Of a DNA stretch of 64,000 nt, positions 4,237-30,329 are shown piece by piece. Each line of letters starts with the position of its first letter. Position 1 is the first letter of the stretch. A program made the translations under genes and the position numbers. The notes beneath the pieces are model-generated. The model was given only the letters and a program-made list of their open reading frames with translations, was not told the DNA's origin and searched no databases. The DNA is from an uncultured Thiodictyon sp. (GTDB lineage Bacteria > Pseudomonadota > Gammaproteobacteria > Chromatiales > Chromatiaceae), in NCBI RefSeq assembly GCF_903946935.1, contig NZ_CAJAXH010000021.1, forward strand, positions 1 to 64,000, given 5' to 3'.

Positions 4237-4532
4237 CGATCTGGCCCCTTGGGTCAAGATTAAACGGTGGACGACGCGGCGGGCGCGCGGCGGGTGGCGG
4301 CCGGCGACCGACCCTGGCGCGACGATACACGAAGATTGAGTGGCTGCCCCGCCGATGCGGTGGCCGGGGAGGGCGCGCGGCCCTCTGAAGCGCTGTTGTG
4401 ACCGCCCGGTGACCGGTTCGGTGACAAAACTGTCATACCGCGGTCCTTGACGGTCTGCGGTGGACAGAATACCTTGTTCTTTGCGCTGACCCTGAGGCAG
4501 GGTCTCTCTATCATTTAACCAAGGTGTGCCCC
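4237..4532. promoter_or_regulatory. Divergent regulatory region between the biosynthetic operon and terB
   Basis: These 296 bases separate two divergent operons and hold no credible ORF. A weak sigma70-like match on the plus strand is TTGACG at 4447-4452 with TACCTT 17 nt later. No clear operator palindrome was found. Shared control of both arms is inferred from the layout only. Confidence 0.4.
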
Positions 4533-4988: not shown

Positions 4989-5042
4989 GCCCATCCGGGT
5001 GCGCGGCTGCGCACCCCGGGGTGCATCGATGAAGAGGCACTG

Positions 5043-5684: not shown

Positions 5685-5689
5685 ATCCG

Positions 5690-6328: not shown

Positions 6329-6358
6329 GTCATCCAGGGGTCATCCAGGGGCAACACG

Positions 6359-7411: not shown

Positions 7412-7414
7412 CCA

Positions 7415-8848: not shown

Positions 8849-8858
8849 GGGCCGCCGG

Positions 8859-10358
8859 ATGAATGACATCATCGAACTCAAGACCTGGCAAGGCGACACC
8901 GTCGCCTTCGAGGACGCCGTCATTGGGTCCGGTGCCATGAAGGACGTCTGTTTCTCCCCGGATCGCTCCTATGTGATCGGGTTCTTCCGCGAGCCCCAGG
9001 GCCCCGCCGCCCGCGAGCGCCTGCGGGTGATCTGCGAAGACTACCGCGAGGGCATCTTTGGGCAGGTCGGCGGCGACTATTGGCGGGAACTCTTCTGCTG
9101 GCCGACCGGTGTCGTTGAACACGAGGGACGGGTCGGGGTGGTGGCGCCGGCCTATGCGCCGCAGTTCTTCTTTGAATACGGCTCCGCCAATAACGATATG
9201 CTCGGCATCAAGGGCCGGGAGAAGGAGGGCAAATGGTTCGCGAGCGCCAACAATCAGGCGCGCTTTCTGGACCCGCGCGAGCGCGGCGATTGGCTCAACT
9301 ATCTGCGCATCTGCATGCGCATCGCCCGTGCGGTGCGGCGGATGCATGCCGCCGGGCTCGCCCATAGCGACCTGTCCTATAAGAATGTGCTGGTCGATCC
9401 CCGCAGCGGCAGCGCCTGTATCATCGACCTCGATGGGTTGGTGGTCCCCGGCAAGTATCCCCCCGAGGTGGTGGGCACACCGGATTTCATTGCCCCCGAG
9501 GTCGTGATGACGGCCCACCTGCCGCACGATAGCCCGGCGCGCAAGCTCCCCTGTATCGCGACCGATCGTCACGCCCTGGCGGTCCTGATCTATATGTATC
9601 TGCTCTACCGCCATCCGCTGCGCGGCGGTAAGGTCCACGACCCCGATCCGAGCCAAGACGAGACCCTCTCAATGGGTGAGCGCGCGCTCTTTGTCGAGCA
9701 CGCACACGACTTCAGCAATCGCATCCGGGTGGCCGATGCGCGCCCCAGCGAGTTGCCCTGGTGCGATACGCAGCGCATGCCCTATACCCTGACCGGTCCC
9801 TATCTGGCGCCGCTCTTCGCGCGTGCGTTTACCGATGGGTTGCGCGACCCGCGGGCGCGTCCGAGTGCCGAGGATTGGGAGTTTGCGCTGGTGCGCACCG
9901 CCGATCTCATCCTGCCCTGCGCCAATCGCGGCTGTGTGCAGGGATGGTTCGTATTCGACAACCGGCGGGCGCCGAGCTGTCCCTTCTGTGGGACGCCCTA
10001 CCCGGGGGCGCTCCCGGTGCTCAATTTCTATTCGAGCCGGCATGGCGACAGCTTCCGCCCGGACGACCAGCGGCTGATGGTGTATACTAACCAGTCATTG
10101 TTCGAGTGGCATGTGAATCGTCACCTGGCCCCCAACGAACGCCTCACCGAGGCGCAGAAGGTCCGGGTCGGCTATTTTGTCTTCCACCAAGGCACCTGGT
10201 GGTTGGTCAACGAGCGGCTCCCGCACTGCCGCGACCTGAGTGCCGGGCGAGATATCGCCGTGGGTGAGCGCGTGGCCCTGCGCGACGGACTCCAATTGCT
10301 CCTGTCGCGCGAGTCCGGCGGGCGCCTGGCGCTCGTGCAGATGGCCGGAGGTGGCTAG
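8859..10358 (+). CDS. TerY-P-type protein kinase-like protein with C-terminal zinc ribbon
   Basis: The protein has 499 residues from the ATG at 8859, in frame with and shorter than the track ORF. Kinase features are a glycine-loop-like GSGAMKDV, the catalytic loop HSDLSYKNVL (HRD changed to HSD, with Asp and Asn kept), the metal site IIDLDG in place of DFG, and an APE-like FIAPEVV. A C-terminal zinc ribbon follows (CANRGC ... CPFCGTP), and then a region of about 130 residues that I do not recognise. No obvious beta-3 Lys is seen. It ends the TerY-P triad and likely phosphorylates TerY or TerD partners (inference). Confidence 0.85.
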   Translation: MNDIIELKTWQGDTVAFEDAVIGSGAMKDVCFSPDRSYVIGFFREPQGPAARERLRVICEDYREGIFGQVGGDYWRELFCWPTGVVEHEGRVGVVAPAYAPQFFFEYGSANNDMLGIKGREKEGKWFASANNQARFLDPRERGDWLNYLRICMRIARAVRRMHAAGLAHSDLSYKNVLVDPRSGSACIIDLDGLVVPGKYPPEVVGTPDFIAPEVVMTAHLPHDSPARKLPCIATDRHALAVLIYMYLLYRHPLRGGKVHDPDPSQDETLSMGERALFVEHAHDFSNRIRVADARPSELPWCDTQRMPYTLTGPYLAPLFARAFTDGLRDPRARPSAEDWEFALVRTADLILPCANRGCVQGWFVFDNRRAPSCPFCGTPYPGALPVLNFYSSRHGDSFRPDDQRLMVYTNQSLFEWHVNRHLAPNERLTEAQKVRVGYFVFHQGTWWLVNERLPHCRDLSAGRDIAVGERVALRDGLQLLLSRESGGRLALVQMAGGG

Positions 10359-10364
10359 CCCGGA

Positions 10365-10518
10365 TTGCTCACGCCAAGGCGCCAAGCACGCCAAGGTTTT
10401 GAGTATGAAGGTAATATCAGGTAAGCGTGTTGGTAATTCTGTCAGGGCGTCAATCCGGGTGTTCGTGATCAACTAATCGACTGTTTTCTTGGCGATCTTG
10501 GCGCCTTGGCGTGAGACT
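10365..10518. repeat. Repeat family A, copy 2
   Basis: It has the family A ends (TTGCTCACGCCAAGGCGCCA and GCGCCTTGGCGTGAGA), but its core differs from the other copies and lacks the CCGGGTGA segment. It lies between the kinase gene and the TerD-family gene cluster, where it could act as a processing hairpin in the transcript (inference). Confidence 0.85.
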
Positions 10519-10595
10519 CCTGAGGAATCCGGGCTTAAGGCTGGCGCGACTGCGCGGCCTTTCTTATCAATCACTAACAGCGAATGGGTATCGTC

Positions 10596-11171
10596 ATGGC
10601 ACTGAATCTTTCAAAGGGTGATCGGATCTCGCTGGAAAAGACCGGCGGTGCCGGCCTGACCCGCGTGATACTGGGTCTCGGGTGGGGCAAGCGCAAGAAG
10701 AAGGGCTTCTTCGGGTCATCGGAGGTCGAGGTCGATCTCGATGCATCCTGTCTGCTCTTCTCGTCCGGGAAACTGACCGACACGGTATGGTTCAGGCAAT
10801 TGAAGAGCCAGGACGGGGCCGTCCGGCACACCGGCGATGACCGCTCGGGCGGCGGCAGCGACGACAATGAGCAGATCAGCGTCGAACTGACCAAGTTGCC
10901 GGCGACGGTCGACGCCTTGATCTTCACTGTCAATTCATTTCTCAATGACAGCTTCGAGGGCATCCCCAATGCGCGTTGCCGCTTGCTGGATGCGGCGGGA
11001 AACAAGGAGCTGGCCCGTTTCGACCTGTCGCTCGACGGGGCCAAGAGCACCGGTATGGTGATGGCCAAGCTGTATCGCGAGAACGGCGCCTGGAACCTGC
11101 AGGCGATCGGCGAGCCGGGTATGGGCCGCACCTTCAACGACATGATGCCACTGATCGGCCGTCATCTCTGA
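10596..11171 (+). CDS. TerD-family protein (TerZ-like)
   Basis: The protein has 191 residues starting MALNLSKGDRISLEK; the MALxLxKG start typical of TerD proteins makes me prefer the ATG at 10596 to the one at 10584. TerD features are the WGKRKKKG loop, VDLDASCLL, and the acidic loop GDDRSGGGSDDNE that binds Ca2+ in TerD. The C-terminal third has VMAKLYRENGAWNLQAIGEP, the family's beta-hairpin. The lysine-rich insert FGSSEVEVD is TerZ-like rather than TerD-like. It is the first of four TerD-family genes in a row. Confidence 0.88.
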   Translation: MALNLSKGDRISLEKTGGAGLTRVILGLGWGKRKKKGFFGSSEVEVDLDASCLLFSSGKLTDTVWFRQLKSQDGAVRHTGDDRSGGGSDDNEQISVELTKLPATVDALIFTVNSFLNDSFEGIPNARCRLLDAAGNKELARFDLSLDGAKSTGMVMAKLYRENGAWNLQAIGEPGMGRTFNDMMPLIGRHL

Positions 11172-11181
11172 GGGGACAGCG

Positions 11182-12336
11182 ATGGACCTGCAATCCGGTC
11201 AGAACGCCCCCGTCGGTGGGGGCCTGGTGCGCCTGGCGCTGACCTGCGACCCGGCGAATCAGGCCCCCAGCCTGGACGTGAGCGCCTTTCTACTCGATGC
11301 CGCCGGTCGCGTCGCGGGGGATGGCGGGTTCGTCTTCTACGGCAACCCGAACGATCCCGCGGGCGCGGTCAAGCTCGATCCGGTGGCGGCCAGCTTCCAG
11401 GTCGATCTGGCGCGGATACCAACCGGGATCGAGCGGGTGGTGATCGCCTTGAGTATCGATTCCGGTGTAGCCGGATTGCGCGCCTTCTCGCAGTTTCGGG
11501 CGCTGCGCTTGAGCGCGACCAGCCCCAATGTCGACTTGCAGTTCCCGGTGGCGAGCGCGGGCATGGTCGAGAGTGCGCTGATCATGGGCGAACTCTATCT
11601 GCGCAACGGTGCCTGGAAGCTGCGCGCACTGGGTCAGGGCTTTGCCGGCGGGCTCGCCCCGCTGGCCCGCAATTATGGCGTCGATGTGAGCGAGGCGACG
11701 GCTCCGCCCCCGGCGCCGGTCCCCGCGACTCCACCCGCAGCACCCTCGCGCATCGACCTGCGCAAGCGTGAGCCGATCTCATTGGAGAAGCCGTCCAAGG
11801 GCTTTGGCCAGATCGAGATCAATCTCAATTGGAAGCGCGGCACGGTCAAGCGCGGCCTGTTCGGGGGCACGAGCGGCGGTATCGACTTGGACCTGGGGTG
11901 CATGATCGAGCATGCCGACGGCAACAAGGACGTGATTCAGGCCCTGGGCGAGCGCTTCGGTTATCTGGACGGACCGCCCTTTGCGAAACTGCTCGGGGAT
12001 GATCGTACCGGCGAGTCGACCTCCGGCGAGACCTTGTTGATCAACGGCGATCGGTGGACGGCCTTCAAGCGGGTGCTGATCTATGCCTTCATTTACGAGG
12101 GCGTACCCAACTGGGCCGCCGCCGACGCCGTGGTAACCGTCAAGGCGCCCGGTTCGGCGGAATTGGTCGTCGCGCTCGATGAGCACTCAACCGGCAAGGG
12201 GATGTGCGCGATTGCGCTGCTGGAGAACGATGGCGGACGGATTCGCGTGACCAAGCTCGTGGAATACTATGCCGCCCACCCGCAGATGGACGAGGCCTAT
12301 CGCTTCGGCTTCCAGTGGCAGGCCGGGCGGAAGTAG
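11182..12336 (+). CDS. terA: TerA-like protein with two TerD domains
   Basis: The protein has 384 residues, close to the 385 of classical TerA. TerD domain 1 (about 1-172) runs from LVRLALTCD to [17 protein letters not shown] and lacks the acidic Ca2+ loop. A Pro/Ala linker (about 175-190) leads to domain 2, which has [18 protein letters not shown] and a [13 protein letters not shown] loop. The C-terminus ([18 protein letters not shown]) matches TerA proteins. It starts 10 nt after the preceding stop. TerA proteins are soluble and co-purify with other Ter proteins in published work. Confidence 0.85.
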
Positions 12337-12404
12337 TCCACTCAACCAAACCGGCGCGTCGGCGTCGACTAGTCTTCATTCGCATTTCAGAGGAGCAACG
12401 GATC

Positions 12405-12980
12405 ATGGCCGTTTCGCTGCAAAAGGGTGGGCGGATTTCGCTGGACAAGGCGGCGCCCGGACTCAAGAATATCCTCGTGGGGCTCGGTTGGGACCCGCGG
12501 GTAACCGACGGTGCGCCATTCGACCTGGACGCCTCGGCCTTCCTGGTCGCCGCCTCCGGCAAGGTCCGTAGCGACGCCGATTTCATCTTTTATAATCAGT
12601 TGAAGTCCGCCTGCGGTTCGGTCGAACATGGCCCGGACAACATGGATGGTGGCGGGGATGGTGACGATGAGGTTATTGACGTCTACCTGGACAAGGTCCC
12701 CGCTGACGTCGCCAAGATCGTATTCACCGTGACCATCCACGAGGCCGACACCCGCAAGCAGAACTTCGGCCAGGTGGGCAACGCCTATATTCGCCTGGTC
12801 AACAAGGACAGCGGCGCCGAGGTGGTGCGTTTCGATCTCGGCGAGGAATACTCCACCGAGACCGCGATGGTGTTCGCCGAGCTCTATCGCAGCGGCGCCG
12901 AATGGAAATTCAATGCCATCGGCCAGGGCTACGCCGGCGGCCTGGCGCCCATGGCACGTCAATACGGCGTGTCGGTCTAG
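12405..12980 (+). CDS. terD: Calcium-binding TerD stress protein
   Basis: The protein has 191 residues, the standard TerD length; the track ORF at 12204 is an upstream extension. An AGAGGAG site precedes the ATG at 12405. All TerD hallmarks are present: [15 protein letters not shown], the acidic [14 protein letters not shown] loop, [12 protein letters not shown], and [15 protein letters not shown]. Published TerD structures bind two Ca2+ ions through these acidic residues. It is soluble. A hairpin plus T-run just after it (12991-13018) may lower transcription into the next gene. Confidence 0.92.
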
Positions 12981-12990
12981 TTTTTTTTCC

Positions 12991-13018
12991 GGCCCGACCG
13001 ATACCCGGCGGGCCTTTT
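12991..13018 (+). terminator. Weak intrinsic terminator or attenuator between terD and terE
   Basis: GGCCCG pairs with CGGGCC around a 12-nt loop and is followed by TTTT; eight T residues precede it. Lying between two cotranscribed ter genes, it is more likely a partial terminator or processing site than a full stop. Confidence 0.5.
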
Positions 13019-13064
13019 CAGCAACCACGGCCGCACGGCGGCCGATCCAATGGAGCGCTCGCAG

Positions 13065-13634
13065 ATGCCAGTCAACTTGACCAAGGGTGGAAACGTCTCC
13101 CTGACCAAAGAGGCCCCGGGGATCAGCAAGATCCGCTTCGGCCTGGGTTGGGACGCCCGCAGCACCGACGGCGCCGCCTTCGACCTGGACGCGGTCGCGG
13201 TGGTCGTCGGCGCGGATGGGAAGGTGCTCTCGCAGCCATACTTTGTCTTTTTCAACAACCTGGCGACGCCCGATAAGTCGGTGGTCCACCAGGGCGACAA
13301 CCGCACCGGCGAGGGTGAGGGCGACGATGAGGTGATCGCGGTCGATCTGCCCAAACTGCCGGCCGAGTCCGCCAAGGTGGTCTTTGCGGCCACCATCTAT
13401 GAGGCCGACACCCGTAAGCAGAACTTCGGCCAGGTGGCCAACGCCTATATCCGCGCGGTCGACGAGGCCACCGGTGCCGAGGTCATGCGCTTCGACCTGA
13501 GCGAGGACTTCTCCACCGAGACCTCGCTGGTGTTCGGCGAACTCTACCGCCGCGAGGCCGAATGGAAGTTCAAGGCCATCGGTGCCGGCTACGCCGACGG
13601 CCTGGCCGGTCTGGTGCGCGATTACGGGGTGTAG
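13065..13634 (+). CDS. terE: TerD-family protein (TerE-like)
   Basis: The protein has 189 residues starting [14 protein letters not shown] prefer the ATG at 13065 to the one at 13050 because GGAGC lies about eight bases upstream. It is strongly similar to the preceding TerD ([48 protein letters not shown]) and keeps the acidic loop [13 protein letters not shown], so calcium binding is expected. It is a tandem duplicate of terD; the TerE name follows position and length and is not certain. Confidence 0.85.
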
Positions 13635-13729
13635 GAGCGACTCCCGGCCGCGACAGCCGGCCGCCAGGGATGGTGGCCAATCCCCATCGCGCTCCTGACA
13701 ATGTGTTAGGCCCTGCGCGCCTCGAGCCC

Positions 13730-13760
13730 CGTAGGGTCCGCTGTGCGGACCGATCGCCGC
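13730..13760. repeat. Repeat family D, copy 1 (GGTCCGC hairpin)
   Basis: GTAGGGTCCGCTGTGCGGACC followed by GATCGCCGC forms a tight hairpin. Near-identical copies lie at 36079-36109 and, inverted, at 40288-40316. It lies in the gap before terC. Confidence 0.8.
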
Positions 13761-13830
13761 CCATTTTCACCCGGACGCCTCCCGATCGGACGCCCGGGTC
13801 ATTCTCAACTCGCTATCAACGGAGCATAAG

Positions 13831-14859
13831 GTGGAACACCATTTTGGTTACCCCTTCCACGTCATCCTGGTCTTTTTTGTGACCGTGGGGCTGGCGGTCT
13901 ATGTCGATCTGCGCGCCCATCGCTCGTCCACAGAGATCGGCCTCAAAGACGCCGCGCTCTGGTCCGTTTTCTGGATCGGCCTGGCGCTCGCCTTCTATGG
14001 CTATCTATGGGTCGGTTACAATAAGGAGTGGGCCGACCTGTATCTCACCGGTTATGTGCTGGAGAAGACACTATCGGTCGATAACCTGATGGTCTTTATA
14101 GCCATCTTCTCTTCATTCGCGATCAGCGGAGGGCTCCAGCACCGAATCCTCTATTGGGGCATCTTGGGTGCCCTGATATTCCGCGCTATTTTTGTGCTGG
14201 CCGGTACCAGCCTGTTCCTCGCCAGCGCCTGGGTCGGCTTCCTGTTTGCGGCCGTGGTCGCCTGGAGCGCCTGGAAGATGATGACCGCGCGGGAGGAGGA
14301 GGAGGAGATCGCTGACTATACCGACCATTGGTCGGTACGGATCGCCAAGCGGGTCCTGCCGATCTTCCCGCGGATGCACGCCGGACGCTTCTTCATCACC
14401 CGCAAGGTTGCCGAAGAGCTGCTGGACGGCGACTCGACCCTGCAGCTGCATGGCCGTACCTGGGCCTCCTTCTTCGCCACGCCCGCCTTCCTGTGTCTGC
14501 TGGCCATCGAGACCTCGGACATCATGTTCGCCTTCGACTCGGTGCCGGCCGTCATCGCCGTGACCCAGGAACCGCTCTTGGTCTATGCCGCGATGATCTT
14601 CGCCATCCTCGGCCTGCGCAGCCTCTATTTCGTGCTCGCGGCCCTGACCCGTTATCTGGTCCATCTGGAGAAGGCGGTTATCGTCCTGCTCTATTTCATC
14701 GCCGCCAAGCTGGCGCTACAGAGCTGGAATCACACCATCGGCGACACCGGCATCGATATCGGCGCCGGGCTCAGTCTCGGCATCGTGCTCGGCATCCTGG
14801 CACTGGGCGTCATTGCCTCTTTGGTATTCCCCGAGCGTGAGGGCGACGGCAAGGAATAG
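13831..14859 (+). CDS. terC: TerC-family integral membrane protein
   Basis: This 342-residue TerC protein starts with a GTG preceded by GGAG. It has about nine predicted membrane helices. The conserved acidic motifs are EKTLSVDNLMVF in one helix and ETSDIMFAFDSVPAV in a later one; these likely hold a metal site. A charged cytoplasmic loop (REEEEEIADY) lies between helices. TerC is the membrane anchor or metal exporter of Ter systems, and related proteins (Alx, MeeF/MeeY) export Mn2+. The call of metal transport for this copy is inference. Confidence 0.92.
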   Translation: MEHHFGYPFHVILVFFVTVGLAVYVDLRAHRSSTEIGLKDAALWSVFWIGLALAFYGYLWVGYNKEWADLYLTGYVLEKTLSVDNLMVFIAIFSSFAISGGLQHRILYWGILGALIFRAIFVLAGTSLFLASAWVGFLFAAVVAWSAWKMMTAREEEEEIADYTDHWSVRIAKRVLPIFPRMHAGRFFITRKVAEELLDGDSTLQLHGRTWASFFATPAFLCLLAIETSDIMFAFDSVPAVIAVTQEPLLVYAAMIFAILGLRSLYFVLAALTRYLVHLEKAVIVLLYFIAAKLALQSWNHTIGDTGIDIGAGLSLGIVLGILALGVIASLVFPEREGDGKE

Positions 14860-15006: not shown

Positions 15007-15096
15007 GAGCGCCGCACCCCAGTGCGGCCCGGCTCATCCGCGGCATGCAATGCCGCGGTCGCTTGCGAGGGCGTGCCGCACTGGGGTTCGGCGCTC
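15007..15096. repeat. Nested inverted repeat upstream of the first SUMF1 gene
   Basis: Outer arms of 22 bp (15007-15028 and 15075-15096) match with one mismatch. An inner palindrome (CCGCGGCAT-GCA-ATGCCGCGG, 15038-15058) lies in the loop. It ends 23 nt before the gene start, so in RNA it would form a large structure ahead of the start codon. Confidence 0.7.
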
Positions 15097-15119
15097 CCAG
15101 TGCGACAGGGAGTGACCTG

Positions 15120-16313
15120 ATGTTGGTATGCAGGCATTGCGATCAGCCTCTGGGTTGGGCGATTGAATACTGTCCGTTTTGCGGCAAGGTTCAACCGGTT
15201 GCCGTCGCGAAAAGGCCGTCGCCCGCACCTGTGCCGGAAGAGGTCGCAGTGGTCCAGGCCCGGCGGCCCCCTAGCGCCGCACCCGTGGGAGCGGCGTCCC
15301 GCCGCGAAGACCCCGCATCAATCCCTGAGCTCGTTGCCTCTCCCCGTGGGAGCGGCCTCCAGTCGCGATGCGACGCTGCGGCAACCTGCGAGGTTTCGCC
15401 GCGGCTGGAAGTCACTCCCACAGGCTCCCGGCGCGGCTTTCAAGGTCAACTCAAGACCCCCCGTTTGGAGCGCACCCAAGATCGAGGCGGGTGGCGCTGG
15501 TGGTGGCCGACGGCGCTCGCGGCAGGCCTGTCGGTGCTGGGCCTCGCGCTCTGGTATCAGTGGTGGGGCGGCACCTCGACGCTTCACCCGCCCATGGTCC
15601 CCATCCCTGCCGGCAGTTTCTCGATGGGTTGCCAGCCAGCTGATAGGGGCTGCTATGACGATGAAAATCCGGCCCATCAGGTCCAAGTCCCGGCCTTTGA
15701 GATCGGCAAGTATGAGGTGACCTTTGATGAATGGGACGCCTGCGTGGCCGAGCGTCGCTGCACGCATAAACCCGACGACGAACGCTGGGGCCGGGGCAGC
15801 CGGCCGGTAATCAATGTCTCCTGGGACGATGCCCAGCAATATGTGGCCTGGCTCGGCCGCAAGACCGGCAAGCCCTATCGCTTGCCCAGCGAGGCCGAAT
15901 GGGAATACGCGGCCCGCGCCGGTACCCGAACCGCCTGGTCGTTCGGCGATGACGAGCAGGCCCTGGGCGATTACGCTTGGTTCGATGCAAACGCTGGCGG
16001 TAAGACTCACCCGGTCGGCGAAAAGCGGCCCAACCCCTGGGGCCTCTACGATGTGCATGGCAACGTCTGGGAGTGGGTCCAGGACAAGGGACACGGCAGC
16101 TATCAAGGTGCCCCCGCGGACGGTCGCCCCTGGGACGATGTCTCGGGCGCTGGGCGCGTGGCGCGCGGCGGTGGCTGGATCGGCTCCGGTCGCTACGTCC
16201 GCTCCGCCTGTCGCAGCGGCAATGTTTCCGGCGTCCGGGACCTCAATGTCGGTTTCCGGCTCGCCCTAGGTCCCCAGCCCGGCCAGGCCTCGCGGGCGTA
16301 TCTCCTTTGGTGA
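15120..16313 (+). CDS. Zinc ribbon / single TM / SUMF1 (formylglycine-generating enzyme-like) protein 1
   Basis: The protein has 397 residues from the ATG at 15120 (MLVCRHCDQPLGWA). Order: a four-Cys zinc ribbon (residues 4-22, CRHC and CPFC), a long low-complexity linker, a TM helix (about 130-147, LAAGLSVLGLALWY), then a SUMF1 domain from about residue 160 to the end. The SUMF1 part has IPAGSFSMGC, PVINVSWDDAQQY, RLPSEAEWEYAARAG, GNVWEWV and a late RGGGWI. The topology implies a cytoplasmic ribbon and a periplasmic SUMF1 domain. Three REP-like units are read as linker codons. Whether the domain is catalytic or a ligand-binding relative is not decidable here. Confidence 0.82.
   Translation: MLVCRHCDQPLGWAIEYCPFCGKVQPVAVAKRPSPAPVPEEVAVVQARRPPSAAPVGAASRREDPASIPELVASPRGSGLQSRCDAAATCEVSPRLEVTPTGSRRGFQGQLKTPRLERTQDRGGWRWWWPTALAAGLSVLGLALWYQWWGGTSTLHPPMVPIPAGSFSMGCQPADRGCYDDENPAHQVQVPAFEIGKYEVTFDEWDACVAERRCTHKPDDERWGRGSRPVINVSWDDAQQYVAWLGRKTGKPYRLPSEAEWEYAARAGTRTAWSFGDDEQALGDYAWFDANAGGKTHPVGEKRPNPWGLYDVHGNVWEWVQDKGHGSYQGAPADGRPWDDVSGAGRVARGGGWIGSGRYVRSACRSGNVSGVRDLNVGFRLALGPQPGQASRAYLLW
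15285..15421. repeat. Three REP-like units (family C) inside a coding linker
   Basis: Units at 15285-15310 and 15346-15370 begin GTGGGAGCGGC and lie in direct orientation. A third at 15394-15421 is inverted. All three are translated as part of the disordered linker of the zinc-ribbon SUMF1 protein. Confidence 0.7.
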
Positions 16314-16372
16314 CATCGCTCCAGCGGTGTCACCCCAGTGTCAGCCACTCTGCGCCGCGAGCGCCGACGCCA
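16309..16372. repeat. Repeat family E, copy 1
   Basis: A GGTGACATCGCT/AGCGGTGTCACC hairpin is followed by a CTGCGCCGCGAGCGCCGAC tail. It overlaps the stop codon of the first SUMF1 gene. Copies recur inverted near 21799 and in the same orientation at 60511. Confidence 0.75.
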
Positions 16373-16406
16373 CCATTTTTTCAACCCTGATCAGGAGCAC
16401 ACTGCA

Positions 16407-17081
16407 ATGGCCGATTGGCAAAAACGAGGCGAAAGCGTCGTCAATTCCGGTATCGGTTTTGTTTCCGGCATCGGGCACGCCTTCAAGAATCTGGGGTCCA
16501 CGATCAAGCGGGGTAAGTACGCGAACTTTATCGAAACCTTTTGCGCCATTGCCGGCGATGTCGCCTCGCAGGATGGCCGTTTTGAGGACTCGGAGTCCGC
16601 CGGGTTCAAGCGCTTTCTGCTCGACAATCACGACAATCCGGTGATCGGCGCATTCCCGGTCAACGACCTGCTCGGCAAGTTCAAGCAGTATGCCATCGCG
16701 GCCTTTCTGTGCGATGAGGAAGCGCTCCTCAAGGCCATCAAGGGTGTCGAGCCCGGCAGCGAAGAGGCGCGCACCGTGATCATCGGCGCGCTGGCCGTCG
16801 CCTATGCCGATGGGGAGTGCGATAACGCCGAGGCCGCCTGTATTCAGGGCTACGCCAAGAAGCTGAATATCGATCTCGCCCAAGTCGCGCAAGAGCTCAA
16901 TCTCTCCCTGCCGACCTCCAACGTCGCTGCCTTGCCGCACATCGGCGCGCCGCCTGCCGCGCTGTCGGCGCCGAATCAACCCCAGCAACCCCTGTGCAAA
17001 AGGTGTTGGGCCTTTCTGGTGGCGGGACAGAGCAAATGCGATTGCGGGAGAGACCTCACGCACGACTATGCGGTCAAGTAA
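16407..17081 (+). CDS. TerB-family protein with C-terminal zinc ribbon
   Basis: The protein has 224 residues from the ATG at 16407. A TerB helical domain (about 30-170) carries two acidic repeats, VASQDGRFEDSES and AYADGECDNAEA. A Pro/Ala linker and a C-terminal four-Cys ribbon (CKRCWAF ... CDCGRD) follow. The basic N-terminus (WQKRGESVVNSG) is not exported. Unlike the first TerB it carries a ribbon, as do several other proteins in this locus, so a shared complex is plausible (inference). It sits between two SUMF1 genes. Confidence 0.82.
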   Translation: MADWQKRGESVVNSGIGFVSGIGHAFKNLGSTIKRGKYANFIETFCAIAGDVASQDGRFEDSESAGFKRFLLDNHDNPVIGAFPVNDLLGKFKQYAIAAFLCDEEALLKAIKGVEPGSEEARTVIIGALAVAYADGECDNAEAACIQGYAKKLNIDLAQVAQELNLSLPTSNVAALPHIGAPPAALSAPNQPQQPLCKRCWAFLVAGQSKCDCGRDLTHDYAVK

Positions 17082-17203: not shown

Positions 17204-17279
17204 ATAATGGCCATGGTGCCCGCGCCACCCCGAACCGGACAGACGCATCACCTGATCGCGCGCGACCCGGTACGCGTTG

Positions 17280-18377
17280 ATGTTGTCCTGTCGGCATTGC
17301 GATGCGCGGTTGGGTTGGGCGGTCAAGTATTGTCCGTATTGCGGTAAGTCCCAGGCGCGCGCCGAGGTGGTGGAAGTGGCGCCCCCGCTGGAGCCGATAC
17401 CAATACCAGCCCAGCCTCGGCCGGCCAAGCCGATCGAACCGCGCCTGGAAGACGATTGGTCGCAACCCCTGCCGACAGTTGAGCCGGCAACCGAACCGGT
17501 TGCGTCGGTCGCACCGGTCGCGCCCGTCGTGCCGCCCCCCGGTCGGCCGCCCAAGGCGCCACGGCAGCGCCGCGATTGGTGGCCGGCCCTGTTCGGGGTC
17601 TGTCTGACCGCGTCGGCGTTTGGCGGCTGGTATCGGTATCGCGAGACCCGGACCATGATCCCGATCCCGGCCGGCAGCTTCATCATGGGCTGCGCGCCTA
17701 GCCTTGGGCGAGGTTGTAACGATTCGGAGACACCAGCCCATCGGGTCGATGTGGCCGCCTTCGAGCTGGGCCGGCACGAGGTGACCTTTGCCGAATGGGA
17801 TGCCTGTGCGGCCGCCGGCGGCTGTCCCAAGAAGCCCAATGACTGGGGGAGCGGCCAACGCCCGGTGATCAACGTCTCCTGGGAGGATGCCCAGCAGTAT
17901 CTGGCTTGGCTCAACGGCACGACCCACAAGGCGTATCGGCTGCCCACTGAGGCCGAATGGGAATATGCCGCCCGCGCCGGGACGACGACGGCCTTCAGCA
18001 CCGGCGATTGCATTGCCCCCCGGCAAGCCAACTATCACGACAAGGCCGACCACCCCGGCTGTCCTACCAAGACCGGGGTGTCGCTCGGCAAGACCCGGCC
18101 GGTGGGCAGCTATCCCGCCAACCCCTGGGGTCTGCGCGACATGCTGGGTAATGTCCAAGAGTGGGTACAGGACTGTTGGCACGAGGACTACCGCGGCGCC
18201 CCGACCGACGGCACCGCCTGGAGGGATGCCTGCTCAGACCCCCAGCGGCGCGTCTTGCGCGGCGGCTCCTGGTACAACGATGCGCAATCGCTACGTTCAG
18301 CCAGCCGCACCCGGGCCTTGCGCACCGCCGGTGCGTCCTCGTTCGGTTTCCGGGTGGCCAGGACCCTGGCCCCGTGA
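17280..18377 (+). CDS. Zinc ribbon / single TM / SUMF1 protein 2
   Basis: The protein has 365 residues from the ATG at 17280. The zinc ribbon (CRHCDARLGWAVKYCPYCGK) is nearly the same as in SUMF1 protein 1. A Pro-rich linker of about 70 residues precedes a TM segment (PALFGVCLTASAFGGWY, about 102-118). The SUMF1 domain has IPAGSFIMGCAP, PVINVSWEDAQQYL, RLPTEAEWEYAARAG, GNVQEWVQD and RGGSWYNDA. It is a paralogue of the first SUMF1 gene with the intervening linker diverged. The SUMF1 domain probably faces the periplasm. Substrate or ligand unknown. Confidence 0.82.
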   Translation: MLSCRHCDARLGWAVKYCPYCGKSQARAEVVEVAPPLEPIPIPAQPRPAKPIEPRLEDDWSQPLPTVEPATEPVASVAPVAPVVPPPGRPPKAPRQRRDWWPALFGVCLTASAFGGWYRYRETRTMIPIPAGSFIMGCAPSLGRGCNDSETPAHRVDVAAFELGRHEVTFAEWDACAAAGGCPKKPNDWGSGQRPVINVSWEDAQQYLAWLNGTTHKAYRLPTEAEWEYAARAGTTTAFSTGDCIAPRQANYHDKADHPGCPTKTGVSLGKTRPVGSYPANPWGLRDMLGNVQEWVQDCWHEDYRGAPTDGTAWRDACSDPQRRVLRGGSWYNDAQSLRSASRTRALRTAGASSFGFRVARTLAP

Positions 18378-18639: not shown

Positions 18640-20115
18640 ATGGAAACATGGGACCTTGACTATCCTGACGGTCATCGCGAGTCTTGGATCAAAGACGCGG
18701 CGAGCGGTCAATTCAGGCTGGCCTACTACAATGGCCTAGGCCCGGTCGATGACCAATACAGCAAACCCGAGCTGGCCGAACTTGTCGGCGCTCGTCTCTG
18801 CCGTGAGGATGACGCCACGGTGCTGTACCCCGGGCTCTTTCGCTATTCAACGGTGACCGGAAAGCCGCTGTCCGACCCTTTGGCGTCTAAGGCGGAAAGC
18901 TGGTTGCCCCCATTTGGTCGGAGCCATACCGCTGACCCCTTCGGGATGCCGGGGCTGCGCCAGACCCACATCAATTTGGCTTTGGCCAGAACCCTCTTGC
19001 CTGAGCAGGACCCGGGCGCCCTGCTGCCCTTGCCGCCACCCGGCGATTATCATTTTTTTGTCGGCAACCTCGCCGCGCGGCGTGCCTCGCTGCTGGCCAT
19101 CGAGCCACGCAAAGGCATGCTCTACCTGTTTCGCGACTCTCAGTCGCGGTGGGTCGAGGTGCGTGGCCAGCATCAACTCTTGCCTGAATCCTCGCTCGCG
19201 ACCAGTCAGTGGAGCTTGGCCTGTCCGGATGCCGGTAGGCAACAACTGTACCTGCCGACCGATCGCGGGCTGGCCCTGCTCGATATCAATATCTTAAGCC
19301 TGAGCTATGACCTGCGCCTGTTCCCCGGGCGTTGCATGGGTGCGCCCGTCTGTTTTCAGGGCAAGCAGATATTCGTCCCGGTCATCGCCGATGGGGACAA
19401 GGGCGGCATTCTTCAAATCGCTACCGGCGATCCCTCGCGGATCGATCCATTGGAATTCAAGCGCTGCTTCCTCGCTGAACCCTTTGCGGCAAGCCTCGTC
19501 GACCAACGCCGGATCATCTGGCTCAACCGGCTCGGTCAACTGATACTCAAGTTCGACGATACGACCCAGCGACCGAATAGCTCATTTATCCCTTGGCCGG
19601 CGGGATTCCAGCCCTGCTTCCAATTTGGCAGCCCCTATCGTGCGCGCGACGGGGTGCTCTGGCAGCTTGGCTTCGACCAGGCGCGCGGACGTTATGAATA
19701 TTTGACGCTCGCCCACAACCAGCCCGAGCGCCAGGAGACCGCCTCCCCACGCTTCGGTTCCGGCACGATCAACTTTACGCTCGAAACGCAACTACGCAGT
19801 CATCCCTGGCTCGATCCCGAGACGGTGAGCGATGCGGGATCGCGTCATATTGTGGCGCCGCTGTTGGAGTCGCCCAATAAGTCGGCGTTCTGCGTGCGCA
19901 TCCCCTGGAATCAGGGGGCGGACGACCTGTTTAGCAGCCAGGGCAAACATGCCGCTGTGTTCCGGCTGGTCATGGAACATGGGGATATCGATTTTTTCAT
20001 GAAAAAGCTCACGCGCCCCTGGCTGACCCGCGCCTTTGTCTATCGCCACGAGCTTTATCTGTATCACCCGGACTTCGATCGGCATATCCCCGGTTGGAAA
20101 CTGTTGACCTGCTGA
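18640..20115 (+). CDS. Unknown protein, soluble, beta-rich
   Basis: The 491-residue protein starts METWDLDYPDGHRESW. I do not recognise the family. It has no signal peptide or TM helix and is rich in short beta-strand-like blocks with aromatic and Gly residues (LLAIEPRKGMLYLF, QQLYLPTDRGLALLDI, QIFVPVIADGDKGGIL, RIIWLNRLGQLILKF). These repeat about every 45-60 residues, as in a beta-propeller. It sits 17 nt before the next gene and within the Ter locus. A propeller-type scaffold is inference; the low similarity of the blocks leaves other folds open. Confidence 0.6.
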   Translation: METWDLDYPDGHRESWIKDAASGQFRLAYYNGLGPVDDQYSKPELAELVGARLCREDDATVLYPGLFRYSTVTGKPLSDPLASKAESWLPPFGRSHTADPFGMPGLRQTHINLALARTLLPEQDPGALLPLPPPGDYHFFVGNLAARRASLLAIEPRKGMLYLFRDSQSRWVEVRGQHQLLPESSLATSQWSLACPDAGRQQLYLPTDRGLALLDINILSLSYDLRLFPGRCMGAPVCFQGKQIFVPVIADGDKGGILQIATGDPSRIDPLEFKRCFLAEPFAASLVDQRRIIWLNRLGQLILKFDDTTQRPNSSFIPWPAGFQPCFQFGSPYRARDGVLWQLGFDQARGRYEYLTLAHNQPERQETASPRFGSGTINFTLETQLRSHPWLDPETVSDAGSRHIVAPLLESPNKSAFCVRIPWNQGADDLFSSQGKHAAVFRLVMEHGDIDFFMKKLTRPWLTRAFVYRHELYLYHPDFDRHIPGWKLLTC

Positions 20116-20132: not shown

Positions 20133-21605
20133 ATGCGCCTACGTTCGCTGCTCTTGTTGCTTTCACTGATCTCGCCGGTGCCTGCTGCCACGGCGATGCA
20201 GCAGGCCTTTTTGATTCAAAACTCGGGCTGGATGGAGCCATTTTATAGCGATCCGCAATCGCTGTTCAAATCGCTGATTTTGGCCGTGTTCCATACCGTG
20301 ACGCGGCCGCAGGATCGGGTCTTTGTTTCGGTCTTCAACCAATCGGTCGGCAACAATAAATCGCCGGTGCTGATTTATCAAAACGGCCAAGCCCGCTCTG
20401 TCGATGAAGTCATCGGCGACATCAAGGTGGCCAAGAAGCCTCAATCCAGCGCATTGACCGATACGGATTTTCAGGAGGCGGTCACCAAGACCATTATCGA
20501 TCGATTTCAAGGCAAGCCCGGAATCATATGGATTTTCACCAATAACAAGAACAGCCCGAATAACGATGCGGCAACGATCGTCCGCAATCGCGAGTTTTAC
20601 CAATTAATCCATAACGAGCCGACCATCGCCAGAACCGTCGCCTTTCCGTTGGGCATGCCGGTCAAGGGTCGAGTCTATAAGGCCAGCGGCCTGATGGTCT
20701 ATGCCTTGGCCTATGGCAACGAGGCCGACGCCGCCTTGCGCTACCTGATCGACAGCGGACGGGTCGGACAGGTATTCACCGAGACGCCGGCGCGGTTGAA
20801 GCCGCTGGATCGCGACTCTGTACGTCTACTGCCGCAGGAAATCCGCAACCAGCCTGGAACCACGGTGGGGTTGGCCGCGGATCGGCACACGGTGGTATTG
20901 GATGTCGAGGCATCCAAGCAACAGCCGAGTGTCGAGATCCTGGCGTCGCTCGAAAACCTGTTTTATCCCTATATTATCGAATCGGCTGACCTCTCGGCCA
21001 GCTTTGTCGTCGCCGCGTCGCGCAGTACATTGGCGCCGGAGCCATCGCGCATCGCCGCGCTGGAGCCGGGCGCGCGTAAAGAAATCAGGGTGACCCTGCC
21101 CATTCCGCTCGCTCAAGTCCCTTCGATCTGGTCGATCAAGGCCTTGCGTTCATTCGGTACGCGCTTTGAAATCCATGGCACACTCGAGTTGGAACTGAGC
21201 AATCAGCGGCTCGTCCTATCGGATGCCTTTAGCAAGAATCTGAATACACTGTTTCCCGGCGACCCCATTTCCGAGGTGTTTTCTCCGCCGCAGGATACAC
21301 TGTCATCCCAGGTCAGCGTTCCCTTTGTGATTCGCATCGTTTATCCCACGTATCCCATCTTGCTCATTGGTCTGGCCCTGCTGGTGGGGCTGGGGGTGAT
21401 CCTGTCGGCGCTCATCCTTGGCAACCGGTCGCGCGTCTATCAATTGCGGGTCGATGGTCAGGTGCAGACCTGTCGGCTCAAGCCGTTTCGCTCCCAGCCA
21501 TTGTATTCTGCCCGGGGTGAGTTGGTTGCAAGGGTCAGGCGCGGGTTAGCGCGGATTGAGGTCCTTGACCGCAAAGAGGGGCACAGCGTTGAAATCAACC
21601 AATAG
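20133..21605 (+). CDS. Secreted vWA-like protein with C-terminal TM anchor
   Basis: The protein has 490 residues from the ATG at 20133, preceded by GGAGG; the track ORF at 20094 starts earlier in the same frame. A signal peptide (MRLRSLLLLLSLISPVPAATA) is followed by a vWA-like fold in which the first MIDAS motif reads QNSGWM instead of DxSxS, and IIWIFTNNKNSPNND takes the place of the second motif. A TM helix (about 408-432, YPILLIGLALLVGLGVIL) precedes a cytoplasmic tail of about 60 residues (YQLRVDGQVQTCRLKPF). The fold would face the periplasm. The motifs are degenerate, so metal binding is uncertain. Confidence 0.65.
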   Translation: MRLRSLLLLLSLISPVPAATAMQQAFLIQNSGWMEPFYSDPQSLFKSLILAVFHTVTRPQDRVFVSVFNQSVGNNKSPVLIYQNGQARSVDEVIGDIKVAKKPQSSALTDTDFQEAVTKTIIDRFQGKPGIIWIFTNNKNSPNNDAATIVRNREFYQLIHNEPTIARTVAFPLGMPVKGRVYKASGLMVYALAYGNEADAALRYLIDSGRVGQVFTETPARLKPLDRDSVRLLPQEIRNQPGTTVGLAADRHTVVLDVEASKQQPSVEILASLENLFYPYIIESADLSASFVVAASRSTLAPEPSRIAALEPGARKEIRVTLPIPLAQVPSIWSIKALRSFGTRFEIHGTLELELSNQRLVLSDAFSKNLNTLFPGDPISEVFSPPQDTLSSQVSVPFVIRIVYPTYPILLIGLALLVGLGVILSALILGNRSRVYQLRVDGQVQTCRLKPFRSQPLYSARGELVARVRRGLARIEVLDRKEGHSVEINQ

Positions 21606-22442: not shown

Positions 22443-25400
22443 ATGGCAGAGCAAGAGAGCGCGGCGCGCCCCAAACCGGTTGAAAAGATCGTCAAACTAC
22501 GCCCGACCCTGTATATCGGGGTGGGCGGTACCGGTATGGAGGTGATCCTGAGGGTGCGCCGCCGGATACTCGCCGCCGCGTGGGGGCCGGCCCGCAACCC
22601 GGTGCGGATTTCGAGCCTGGCGGAATTTCCGGTCGCTCAATTCATCCATTTCGATCTGGATCAGGGCGCGCTGGTGGAGTCGGGGAAATCGCAGCGCACC
22701 GATCCGCTGGCCGACGCGGTCAAGCTGTCCGACGAGGACCGTCTGGTAGAGTCCTTTGAGATCGAGCGCTACAGTCGCAGCGATGACGACCTGGCCAAGT
22801 ACCCCTATATCGAAAACTGGTCCCCGCTGACGCCGAAGAAGATCCGTGAGATGGGCATCGACCCGGCCAAAGGTGCCGGTCAGATTCGCGCGATTTCGCG
22901 TCTGTATTTCTTCGACAAATACACAAAGGTCAAAGAAAAGATCCGCTCAAAATTGGTTTGGCTAAAGAGCGGGCTGTCCAAGGACACGCAACTCAAGGCG
23001 CTCGGGCTCGATCTGGATCAGAGTAAATTTCGCATCGTGGTCATCGGCTCGGTGGCCGGCGGTACCGGTGCCGGCTCCTTTCTCGATATGGGTTGGTTGG
23101 CCAACTGGATCGCCAAGGAGACGGTGAGCGCGGCGGATGTCGAGATGATGGTGTTCCTGCCTACCGGTTACCAGAGCGCGAATAAGGAGCGGACCGAGGC
23201 CAACGGTTATGCCTCATTTATGGAGCTCGAGACCTGCATGCGGGGCGGTTCGCATTTTGTGACGCGCTGGGATGCCTATGATCGCCCGCAGTTGAGTGTG
23301 AAGCCGTACGACGAGGTGTATCTGATCGACTCGGGCAACCTGGCGCAGTTGCATACCAGCAATCAGAAAGACATTTACGATATGGTGGCGGATGCACTGT
23401 TTGAGGATTTTGCCTCGATCGACTTTGCCAACAAGAAGCGCTCAGTTGCAGTCAATCAACGCCAGCACAAGATACTTCCCTTTACCCCGCCGGTCCCCGG
23501 CAACCGGTATGGGGACATGCGCCTATCCTATTATCAGGGCTATTCCGCATTTGGCCAATCGGTACTGGATACCCAGCGCGGCGTGCAGCGCGATATGCGT
23601 GCCTATTATTGGACGGCGGAGATGGTCAAGGCCTTTTTCGGGGTGGCCCTGGAGAATGTCGGGGCGCGTCGCGCCACTGACAAACAACGCGACGACTTCA
23701 TGGCACAGTATATCCAACTGGTGCCACACGCGTTCACCAATTTCCCCGAGCTCAGCGATCGCCGTGCCCAGCTCAACCGCGCTGAATTTACCGATTCTCA
23801 GATCACCGACAGCCTGCTGATCGATCGTCAGGGATCGCTGATCGATGGGATGCTGCAAAAGGTGGGCGCGAGCATCGAGCGCATTGCCTCAGGGAATAAC
23901 AAGGACGAGTGGGGCCTGAGTATCCGGGAGGCATTCAAGCAATTGGAGCGCGACGTGGTGCGCGATCAGGACTCCACGGCCGATGCCACCGAGGATCGCG
24001 TCAGCCGCGGTGCTGCCGAGTCGTTCATTGACACGACGACCAGGATTCGCGATCAGCTCTATGTCTATCTGGACAACAAAGAACACGGCGGGCTGGAATA
24101 TGTCCTGTCGCTCGTCGAACAAATCAAGGATCGCCTGGAGAATCCAAGCACCGGCCTGATCGCGGCATTGGCCGATAATGCCAGGCGCTACGGAGAAATA
24201 CGCGATGTGGTGCGCACCTGCGAATATGACCGGTTGTTGAACAACCTGGATCAGACCAAAGGTGGCGGTCTGTTCAGTTTCGGCAACAAGGAGGAACAGG
24301 CCCGGCTGATCCTGGGTCAGATAAGGGAGGAGATCTGTCATTTCTTGCAGTTTCATCTGCGCGCTACGGCGGCCGCTCATGCCTCGGCGCTGTTGAAAAG
24401 GGTTTCTCAATGGTTGGGTGAACGGCAAGGCATCGATGGGCGTGGCGATGCCGCCTGGAGCGGCTTGGTCGGTGAGATCCAGGCCGGTCGCAATGCCGTG
24501 CTCGCCATGATCGACTCGGTCGAGGGCAAGGTGACGCTCTTGCGGGAGGACACGCGCAAGGACCATGCCACCTATATCCTGGTGGAGACCCCGGAGGAGG
24601 GTGTAGCGCTGCCGCCGACGAATGAGCTGCGGGCCTGGGCGGATGAGGTGTTCACCGATATCGGCGGCTCGCGGACCCTATTCCCGATGCTCGCCGAACC
24701 CAAGGAGCGTGAACGGCTGATCGGTCTGCTGCGGGTCAAGGCGGAACAGCAGATTGCGGCGGCCTCCCATCAACAGCCGGATGAGGGCGACCCGCTGCTG
24801 CTCGCGCTGGAGGCGATGACTCCGACTGAACGGCAACGGCGTTTCGAGGAGCTGATCACGCGGGCGATGCCCTGGGTAGACGCCAGTTGGGGGAAGGATT
24901 TCGAGCCCAAGCCGGATCAATTCAAGTGCTATATCGGGGTCGCCAGCGCGGCCGAATACGAGAAGCGTTTCAAGGAGGAGTTGTTGATGCAGGTGCCGGC
25001 GGGGGTCGGGATTTCACCGGCGCAGGTGGCCTTCGTGGATACCGGCGTGCCCGGTCGGGCGGTCTGCTATTGTGAGTTGTCCGGTATCCCATTGACGACC
25101 CTGCGCGGCATGGAGGCGTGGCGGACCAGCTATCGCAAGGAGTCTGAGAAGATTCCGCTGCACACCCACCGCGATTCCACCCAGTTCACCCATCCGCTGG
25201 CCCCTTCGACCTCCGAGCTCAATCGCCTGGCCGACGACTTTTATCAGTTTTTGTCAGGTGTCATGCTCGGTATTCTGAGCCGGGACGCCCGGGGGGAGAC
25301 GGTTCCGCCCGGGCAGTATGTGTTTGCCGTGAGCCGCGGCGACACTCGGCGAATCGGCAATGAACGCGCCTTTCGCCTCAATGGCCTGCCGGAGACCTAT

Positions 25401-26156
25401 CATAGCCAGATCCTGGCCGAGATCGGCGAGCGGATCAATGGTCTGAATCCGACTCAGTTCGTCTGTCTGGCGGTGTTGGCCGACTATTATGCCAAGGAGG
25501 TCTATACGCCCTGTCTGGTGTCGGATGAAACCGGCAATCAAAAGCCAGTGAAGGGCTTTCCGGCCGCCATGGCCGAGGAGATGGCGCGGGATTGGCGGGA
25601 GAAGGCCAGACGGATGGGGACCAGCGCGGCCGATGGCGCCCGGGCTGAACGCCAGGCGCTTGAGCAGTTAGATGCCTGGAGTCAGCGCGTGGAAAACTCG
25701 GACGCGGATGCCTACCCGTGGGAGGTCAAGGAGGGTGAGCTGCCGCGGGTGAAGCGGGTGGTGCGCCCGATTTTTTTCCAGATCGACGCCTTGGATGCGC
25801 TGTTAGAGTTAACCGCGCCGACACAGGCCCCAAGGGCGGTCGGCGCACCGACGACCCAACCGGCACCGACAATACCGGGTGCTGTGCCGCCGCCGCCCTT
25901 TGCCGCCCCCACACCCCAGTACCAGTATTTTCTGGCGATGAATGGGCAGCAACACGGTCCCTATCCAGCCGTCCAGTTGCAGCAGTGGGTGACTGCCGGT
26001 CAACTCGATGCGGCGACGCTTGCCTGGCGCGATGGCCTGCCGGCGTGGGCGCCGCTCAATCAGATTGCCGAGCTGGCCTCGCTATTCACCGTCAGCCCGC
26101 CGCCGCCCATTCCCGGGGCGCCCGGCATGCCCCCGGCCCTGCCGCCCGGGACCTAG
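22443..26156 (+). CDS. Tubulin-like (Tub_2-type) protein with C-terminal GYF_2 domain
   Basis: The 1237-residue protein has an AGGAGCTCATC site before its ATG. The N-terminal part has the nucleotide loop GVGGTGMEV (26-34) and the tubulin/FtsZ signature AGGTGAGSF (205-213), so a GTPase fold is likely. The middle (about 300-1120) is long, mostly helical and unassigned. A Pro-rich linker leads to a GYF_2 domain (about 1158-1215: YFLAMNGQQHGPYPAVQLQQW), which usually binds proline-rich ligands. Large Tub_2 proteins are known but little studied. Polymerisation is inference. The next gene begins 2 nt after the stop. Confidence 0.8.
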   Translation: MAEQESAARPKPVEKIVKLRPTLYIGVGGTGMEVILRVRRRILAAAWGPARNPVRISSLAEFPVAQFIHFDLDQGALVESGKSQRTDPLADAVKLSDEDRLVESFEIERYSRSDDDLAKYPYIENWSPLTPKKIREMGIDPAKGAGQIRAISRLYFFDKYTKVKEKIRSKLVWLKSGLSKDTQLKALGLDLDQSKFRIVVIGSVAGGTGAGSFLDMGWLANWIAKETVSAADVEMMVFLPTGYQSANKERTEANGYASFMELETCMRGGSHFVTRWDAYDRPQLSVKPYDEVYLIDSGNLAQLHTSNQKDIYDMVADALFEDFASIDFANKKRSVAVNQRQHKILPFTPPVPGNRYGDMRLSYYQGYSAFGQSVLDTQRGVQRDMRAYYWTAEMVKAFFGVALENVGARRATDKQRDDFMAQYIQLVPHAFTNFPELSDRRAQLNRAEFTDSQITDSLLIDRQGSLIDGMLQKVGASIERIASGNNKDEWGLSIREAFKQLERDVVRDQDSTADATEDRVSRGAAESFIDTTTRIRDQLYVYLDNKEHGGLEYVLSLVEQIKDRLENPSTGLIAALADNARRYGEIRDVVRTCEYDRLLNNLDQTKGGGLFSFGNKEEQARLILGQIREEICHFLQFHLRATAAAHASALLKRVSQWLGERQGIDGRGDAAWSGLVGEIQAGRNAVLAMIDSVEGKVTLLREDTRKDHATYILVETPEEGVALPPTNELRAWADEVFTDIGGSRTLFPMLAEPKERERLIGLLRVKAEQQIAAASHQQPDEGDPLLLALEAMTPTERQRRFEELITRAMPWVDASWGKDFEPKPDQFKCYIGVASAAEYEKRFKEELLMQVPAGVGISPAQVAFVDTGVPGRAVCYCELSGIPLTTLRGMEAWRTSYRKESEKIPLHTHRDSTQFTHPLAPSTSELNRLADDFYQFLSGVMLGILSRDARGETVPPGQYVFAVSRGDTRRIGNERAFRLNGLPETYHSQILAEIGERINGLNPTQFVCLAVLADYYAKEVYTPCLVSDETGNQKPVKGFPAAMAEEMARDWREKARRMGTSAADGARAERQALEQLDAWSQRVENSDADAYPWEVKEGELPRVKRVVRPIFFQIDALDALLELTAPTQAPRAVGAPTTQPAPTIPGAVPPPPFAAPTPQYQYFLAMNGQQHGPYPAVQLQQWVTAGQLDAATLAWRDGLPAWAPLNQIAELASLFTVSPPPPIPGAPGMPPALPPGT

Positions 26157-26158
26157 AG

Positions 26159-26875
26159 GTGTTGGTCTGTCAATATTGCGGCGAGGCGCTGGGTTGGGCG
26201 GTCGCCTATTGCCCGTTTTGCGGCAAGCCGAAGCCAGCGGCGGTCGTTAAACCGAAGCGGTCGCCGCCGCCCGCCCCGCCGGCCCGTGCCCGAGCCAGTG
26301 CCCCGGCCGAGCCGGCAGTGGTGATATTGACTAAGGGGCAAAATGTCTCCCTGTCGCGATTGGCGCCCAATGTGCAGTGCATCCTGATCGATCAGGGTTG
26401 GGATCGGCGCACGGCGGCGGGTGTGGATATGGACCTGGATGAAATCCTCTTTATGACCGCAGCGGACGGTAAGGTGCGGGGCGACGAAGACCTGGTCTTC
26501 TACAATCAACCCAGGTCCGCGTGCGGTGCTATTGAACTGATCGGCAGCAAAGAGAAAGGCGAGAAATTCACGGTCAAGCTGGACCGGATTCCAGACGCGA
26601 TCCAGCGCCTGGTGGTGGGCGTGACCATTTATGACGATGCGGTGCGGGTCAGAAACTTTGGCCAGGTCCGCGGGGCCTATATCCGCATCATCGACCCGGC
26701 GAGCGCGCTCGAGCTGGTCCGCTTTGCGCTCCCGGAGGAATATAGTACAGAGACGGCGATGATTTTCGGTGAGATCTATCGCCGTCAAGGCGAATGGAAG
26801 CTCAAGGCCGTGGGCCAGGGTTTTTCAGGTGGTCTGCGTGCGCTCTGCGGTCAGTTCGGGGTCAGCGTGGCCTGA
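26159..26875 (+). CDS. Zinc ribbon fused to a TerD domain
   Basis: The protein has 238 residues from a GTG at 26159, aligned with the MLVCRHC starts of the SUMF1 proteins; the track ORF at 25985 runs through the previous gene. The ribbon (VCQYCGEALGWAVAYCPFCGK) is nearly identical to the SUMF1-linked ribbons. A linker and a TerD domain (about 60-238) follow: [56 protein letters not shown]. The acidic calcium loop is replaced by ELIGSKEKGEKF, so Ca2+ binding is doubtful. It starts 2 nt after the tubulin-like gene, so the two are probably cotranslated. Confidence 0.85.
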   Translation: MLVCQYCGEALGWAVAYCPFCGKPKPAAVVKPKRSPPPAPPARARASAPAEPAVVILTKGQNVSLSRLAPNVQCILIDQGWDRRTAAGVDMDLDEILFMTAADGKVRGDEDLVFYNQPRSACGAIELIGSKEKGEKFTVKLDRIPDAIQRLVVGVTIYDDAVRVRNFGQVRGAYIRIIDPASALELVRFALPEEYSTETAMIFGEIYRRQGEWKLKAVGQGFSGGLRALCGQFGVSVA

Positions 26876-28364: not shown

Positions 28365-28368
28365 GGCG

Positions 28369-30318: not shown

Positions 30319-30329
30319 TGCGTGCTTGC

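Follow-up and report, generated by a model that had tools for sequence, protein, structure and literature searches.

A 64,000-nucleotide stretch of DNA from an uncultured Thiodictyon sp. (hereafter the window) encodes a large tubulin-like protein with a GYF domain near its C-terminus, TUB-GYF, in a gene cassette that adjoins TerD, TerB, TerC, and TerY genes. This arrangement raises the questions of what kind of tubulin relative TUB-GYF is, which of its neighbours belong with it, and whether its role is bound up with ter. The features discussed are collected in Table 1.

Table 1. Features of the TUB-GYF locus (positions in the window).
Feature	Position	Strand	Basis or remark
ter core: TerB, VWA, TerY, PP2C, kinase-like, four TerD, TerC	4524..14859	+	TerC read from sequence
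ZnR-FGE, zinc ribbon CRHCDQPLGWAIEYCPFCGK on a sulfatase-modifying-factor-like domain	15045..16313	+	domain name from sequence reading
TerB-domain protein, ribbon-like Cys motif at C-terminus	16338..17081	+	
Second ZnR-FGE, zinc ribbon CRHCDARLGWAVKYCPYCGK	17277..18377	+	domain name from sequence reading
U491, conserved all-beta propeller-like protein without known family	18640..20115	+	
vWA-like envelope protein	20133..21605	+	signal peptide, periplasmic domain, C-terminal TM, short tail
TM163, 163 aa, Pro/Ala-rich N-terminus, three predicted TM helices	21910..22401	+	conserved directly upstream of TUB-GYF
TUB-GYF, Tubulin_2/FtsZl1-family protein, 1237 aa, ATG start	22443..26156	+	Pfam, AlphaFold2, Foldseek, 24 full-length relatives
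ZnR-TerD, N-terminal zinc ribbon, short Pro-rich linker, TerD domain; soluble	26159..26875	+	Pfam, orthologues, no TM

The TUB-GYF open reading frame is directly preceded by an AGGAG-like Shine-Dalgarno stretch. The first-pass annotation had described a 1237-residue product with the motifs GVGGTG and AGGTGAGSF, and we find the reading frame and both motifs (residues 26–31 and 205–213) as described; the GYF_2 tail that it proposed is recovered by Pfam at residues 1162–1211 (PF14237, E = 8.9e-15). The two motifs hold T1- and T4-type glycine loops of the N-terminal domain, GxGGTG (26–31) and GGTGxG (206–211). A scan of GTDB genome contigs yielded 24 relatives spanning TUB-GYF nearly end to end, among which GGTGxG is invariant and GxGGTG nearly so. 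Residues 23–376 match Tubulin_2 (PF13809, E = 3.7e-53) with 181.5 bits against a curated cut-off of 27, and the same Pfam scan returned neither the canonical FtsZ/tubulin domain PF00091 (at E ≤ 1) nor FtsZ_C or Tubulin_C. By these matches, TUB-GYF is assigned to the Tubulin_2/FtsZl1 family. Its tubulin-like core (approximately residues 20–400) is followed by a mostly helical middle, an alpha/beta C-terminal part, a Pro-rich stretch, the GYF_2 domain, and a PPP-rich end.

The tubulin/FtsZ-type fold, for which the first-pass annotation had named structure prediction as a check, is backed by both the family search and the predicted structure. In the AlphaFold2 model of residues 1–1134, built with the 24 relatives (mean pLDDT 83.5, pTM 0.71), the core follows a tubulin-like order of strands and helices as far as an S7-like strand, and helices at approximately residues 466–808 precede the alpha/beta region. 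The best 50 Foldseek matches of this model in the PDB are all chains of the tubulin superfamily (tubulin, FtsZ, TubZ, CetZ, PhuZ, and other), with probabilities of 0.99–1.00 and target TM-scores of 0.27–0.50. A search of viral structures gave only weak matches, to FtsZ- and tubulin-like phage proteins, and a sequence search of the PDB with profiles of the tubulin, the vWA-like protein, and U491 gave no relatives. Aligned against FtsZ profiles with hhalign, TUB-GYF matches at the T4 loop alone and nothing beyond it, so the attempt to place the T7 loop in this way failed; an acidic residue (D/E) precedes an invariant F-A near the expected T7 position (residues 327–329).

Several modes of action can be weighed against these data. 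TUB-GYF is not the FtsZ of the divisome, since canonical FtsZ is encoded by a separate gene in all 12 genomes searched, including the source genome. It could instead be a dynamic cytoskeletal GTPase, forming filaments that treadmill or show dynamic instability, as those of FtsZ or TubZ do, for cargo movement or membrane remodelling. The tubulin fold, the invariant GGTGxG loop, and the acidic residue before F-A near the predicted T7 are compatible with such a role, and membrane remodelling is proposed for the family in its 2010 description (PMC2875224), but with T7 not established, Foldseek TM-scores to FtsZ and tubulin of at most 0.5 of the target, and a large helical middle that has no counterpart in FtsZ, we consider this unlikely. 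A nucleotide switch that does not polymerise, the core binding GTP or GDP and altering contacts with membrane proteins in place of filament formation, would agree with FtsZ profiles aligning at the T4 loop alone and with the family authors (PMC2875224) having been unable to identify the T6-H7 elements needed for filaments. The tubulin-like strand-helix order of the modelled core through the S7-like strand speaks against such a switch, as does the GYF domain discussed below, and we regard it as rather improbable.

The FtsZl1 family was described in 2010 by Makarova and Koonin (PMC2875224). TUB-GYF resembles it in having an FtsZ-like domain at the N-terminus that bears the T1 and T4 loops, a large and mostly helical remainder, and TM and vWA-type genes as neighbours, although the vWA match is weak here; the GYF tail with its PPP flanks, U491, TM163, and the zinc-ribbon adaptor, none of which appears in the parts of that description consulted, set the present locus apart. 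The source genome encodes two further Tubulin_2 proteins (G000:C41:16044 and G000:C276:46815), the second of which adjoins OmpA-family genes, in keeping with the gene context given for FtsZl1 in 2010. Five aligned Tubulin_2 paralogues from the genus and family end before the GYF region. In two Pseudomonas loci (L078 and L081, both 15395–17827), an 810-aa open reading frame approximately 1.7 kb 3' of TUB-GYF matches it with 280–284 bits and is a second, shorter copy.

The 24 relatives come from Thiodictyon, a Methylococcaceae MAG, Duganella, Rhodoferax, Variovorax, Acinetobacter, Endozoicomonas, deltaproteobacterial MAGs, and many Pseudomonas. Their loci share one gene order across Gamma-, Beta-, and Deltaproteobacteria, namely U491, vWA-like/TM protein, TM163, TUB-GYF, and zinc-ribbon adaptor; where the catalogue has gaps, these go back to contig ends, to the picking of ORFs, or to genes too divergent for the search threshold. 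The genes upstream, for U491, the vWA-like protein, and TM163, encode the constant partners of TUB-GYF. Across 399 sampled genomes of the phylum, full-length TUB-GYF and U491 are found together in three, and both are absent from the rest. A distant copy on plasmid p2 of Azospirillum sp. TSA2s (L087) keeps U491 (hhalign E = 5.8e-14), the TM protein, and TUB-GYF together, with neither a vWA-like gene nor an adaptor adjoining. This plasmid is mobilizable, and the genes flanking its cassette are of the caspase-family, OmpA, and DUF4384 types. PADLOC defence models gave no match to the cassette proteins.

The U491 model is all-beta (pLDDT 84, pTM 0.86); among its best PDB matches by Foldseek, beta-propellers and all-beta folds related to them predominate, with low TM-scores of 0.2–0.4. 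The true start of the vWA-like gene is ATG at 20133, not TTG at 20094, and its product carries an invariant QNSGWM at a MIDAS-like position. The Pfam VWA match is weak (3 of 22 members, best E = 0.082), and hhalign comparisons with single vWA proteins are not significant, although one of these comparisons does place the three motif blocks in the order expected; the vWA relationship is therefore a weak assignment and suggestive only. If the protein does hold a true vWA domain, its metal site would be one without the usual first Asp. The gap between the vWA-like gene and TM163 (21606–21909, 304 nt) is short in most other genomes, and it contains nested, REP-like palindromes with 28-nt and 22-nt arms (21662–21800).

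The gene downstream of TUB-GYF tells a different story from these constant partners. The first-pass annotation had it starting 2 nt past the tubulin stop, and it does so with a GTG at 26159 after a TAG; the annotated interval, ending at 26156, covers the tubulin alone, and the TerD gene ends at 26875. Its product joins a ribbon, C..C...LGWA..YCPFCGK, to a TerD domain (E = 4.8e-61, Pfam). The other ter-linked relatives have 3 nt at this point. No Shine-Dalgarno sequence is obvious in these 2–3 nt junctions, in agreement with translational coupling of the two genes. The pairing of TUB-GYF with ZnR-TerD, as first described, is far beyond chance, and the proposed cotranslation is supported inside the ter-linked clade; the pairing is not a general one, being limited to Thiodictyon and one MAG.

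Twenty-one of the 24 fetched orthologous loci have no ter genes near the cassette, and the linkage is found in Thiodictyon loci and in one MAG (L065) whose sample label is the same as that of a Thiodictyon bin, so that misbinning is possible. In the tree, the ter-linked tubulins group together in a single clade (support 1.0) that branches within the other TUB-GYF proteins. TerD is thus rejected as a general partner, and the ter linkage of the cassette, as judged from the tree and the loci, is secondary and belongs to one small lineage. These data bear on the reading of TUB-GYF as a scaffold dedicated to the ter stress response, with TerD as its constant partner and the GYF domain gathering the Pro-rich zinc-ribbon proteins (TerD and FGE). 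Retention of the ZnR-TerD coupling in Thiodictyon and the MAG, the same zinc ribbon on the two FGE proteins of the locus, and a ter core that lies upstream of the cassette in Thiodictyon and downstream in L065, two different arrangements, would all suit such a module. Given the many loci without ter genes, the single derived clade, and the absence of PPP from all but one of the four ZnR-TerD adaptors in ter-linked loci, we hold a dedicated ter module to be quite improbable.

What is shared beyond the ter-linked clade is the ribbon. In the window and in each of the 24 loci (25 of 25), the gene that follows TUB-GYF opens with the same zinc-ribbon type, with a Cys-His variant in the first knuckle of the L085 adaptor. 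Of the 21 adaptors outside ter loci, 18 carry at least one predicted TM helix, mostly just past the Pro-rich linker, vs. none of the four ter-linked adaptors (window, L063, L064, and L065), all of which carry TerD. The zinc ribbon of the adaptor is hence constant by these comparisons, and its putative output domain is exchanged, usually membrane-anchored vs. soluble TerD. Within the window, nearly the same N-terminal ribbon, C..C...LGWA..YCP[FY]CGK, is found on the products of 15045–16313, 17277–18377, and 26159–26875. A nearly common ribbon on three functionally different proteins suggests a shared docking partner.

GltJ (AgmX), a gliding and focal-adhesion protein of Myxococcus, combines a zinc ribbon, a Pro-rich linker, a GYF domain, and a TM helix; in contrast to the present cassette, it does so in one polypeptide and without a tubulin domain. 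The GYF domain of TUB-GYF is closest to that of GltJ (PDB 7z3c, E = 2.8e-7), and the GYF protein scores 21.4 bits against a GltJ equivalog cut-off of 450, far below it. PPP occurs on either side of the GYF domain in all 25 close tubulin relatives, often at the extreme C-terminus (PPPLA, PPPLV, MPPPL), whereas any PPP is present in only about half of the next-gene adaptors. This difference favours self-binding, and our leading hypothesis is that GYF acts mainly on the tubulin's own proline tails in trans, which we take to be at least as likely as binding to neighbours; the proposal that GYF chiefly targets the Pro-rich linkers of neighbouring proteins is weakened by the same counts. A GYF domain together with its own PPP tails suggests multimerisation, contrary to the non-polymerising switch considered above. 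The Azospirillum copy retains LPPPVP...LPPPLP, and the two most divergent genome members (G440 and G491) have GYF-like tails without PPP, so that a model built on the GYF tail is not universal.

Taken together, we favour a membrane-docked, nucleotide-dependent tubulin-family scaffold at the cell envelope with exchangeable adaptors, a tentative reading of sequences and models to which we give slightly less than an even chance. In such a scaffold, the tubulin would be docked at the inner membrane by TM163 and the vWA-like receptor, which would also relay a signal from the envelope, nucleotide binding would drive assembly via the tubulin core, and GYF domains would bind the PPP tails of neighbouring subunits and thereby crosslink or cap the assembly. 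U491, which is beta-propeller-like, may be an obligate cofactor. Output would lie with the zinc-ribbon adaptor after its recruitment to the assembly. In most lineages this output part would be a membrane-anchored body; in Thiodictyon, whose scaffold would have been captured by the ter stress system, it would be a TerD domain. The fullest version, a five-gene, envelope-spanning machine whose output is set by the adaptor, whose ter capture came about through soluble TerD replacing the membrane-anchored body, and whose assembly is built by PPP/GYF contacts between subunits, is possible but doubtful as a whole.

Similar combinations exist in other systems. The tubulin-containing GAP1-N2 GTPase systems (PMC7159879) also pair a tubulin protein bearing a C-terminal helical region with linked vWA genes, but no TRAFAC GTPase/GAP1, HSP70, or FNIII gene is found among the Pfam-scanned neighbours of TUB-GYF. 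The window shares the full ter core and the C-C lyase/StiP genes with ter stress-response loci (TerB, TerC, TerD, TerY), whereas most orthologous tubulin cassettes lie outside such loci. In the open literature searched, we found no report of the GYF-tubulin cassette, of its ter capture, or of GYF binding by GltJ. On sequence and gene context, we classify TUB-GYF as a variant of FtsZl1 at the level of a subfamily, one that comes with a constant envelope cassette and whose link to ter is secondary. FtsZl1 proteins have had no assigned function since 2010 in the open literature searched, and this subfamily offers a compact, testable set of partners (U491, vWA-like protein, TM163, and zinc-ribbon adaptor) in culturable pseudomonads, with GYF binding to its own proline tails as a concrete assembly hypothesis. 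The exchange of the adaptor body for TerD is a natural experiment that connects the ter response, itself poorly understood, with a tubulin relative, and the main question left by the wide distribution is the role of the tubulin set itself, apart from ter.

Finally, the wider surroundings of the cassette in the window contain further ter-associated and other genes. Genes for a C-C bond lyase (PF15617) and StiP-PELOTA (286–4084, minus strand) diverge from the ter core and belong to the usual ter-linked group. A TerD-AIM24 fusion is followed by a second AIM24 gene (27069–29094, minus strand), and a 29-nt inverted repeat (97% complementary, 98-nt loop, 26904–27059) lies between the convergent ZnR-TerD and TerD-AIM24 genes. 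Further on, a gene for an nSTAND1 NTPase (PF20703, E = 4.7e-93, 36167–38422) adjoins a Mrp-type cation/proton antiporter group (29992–35901).
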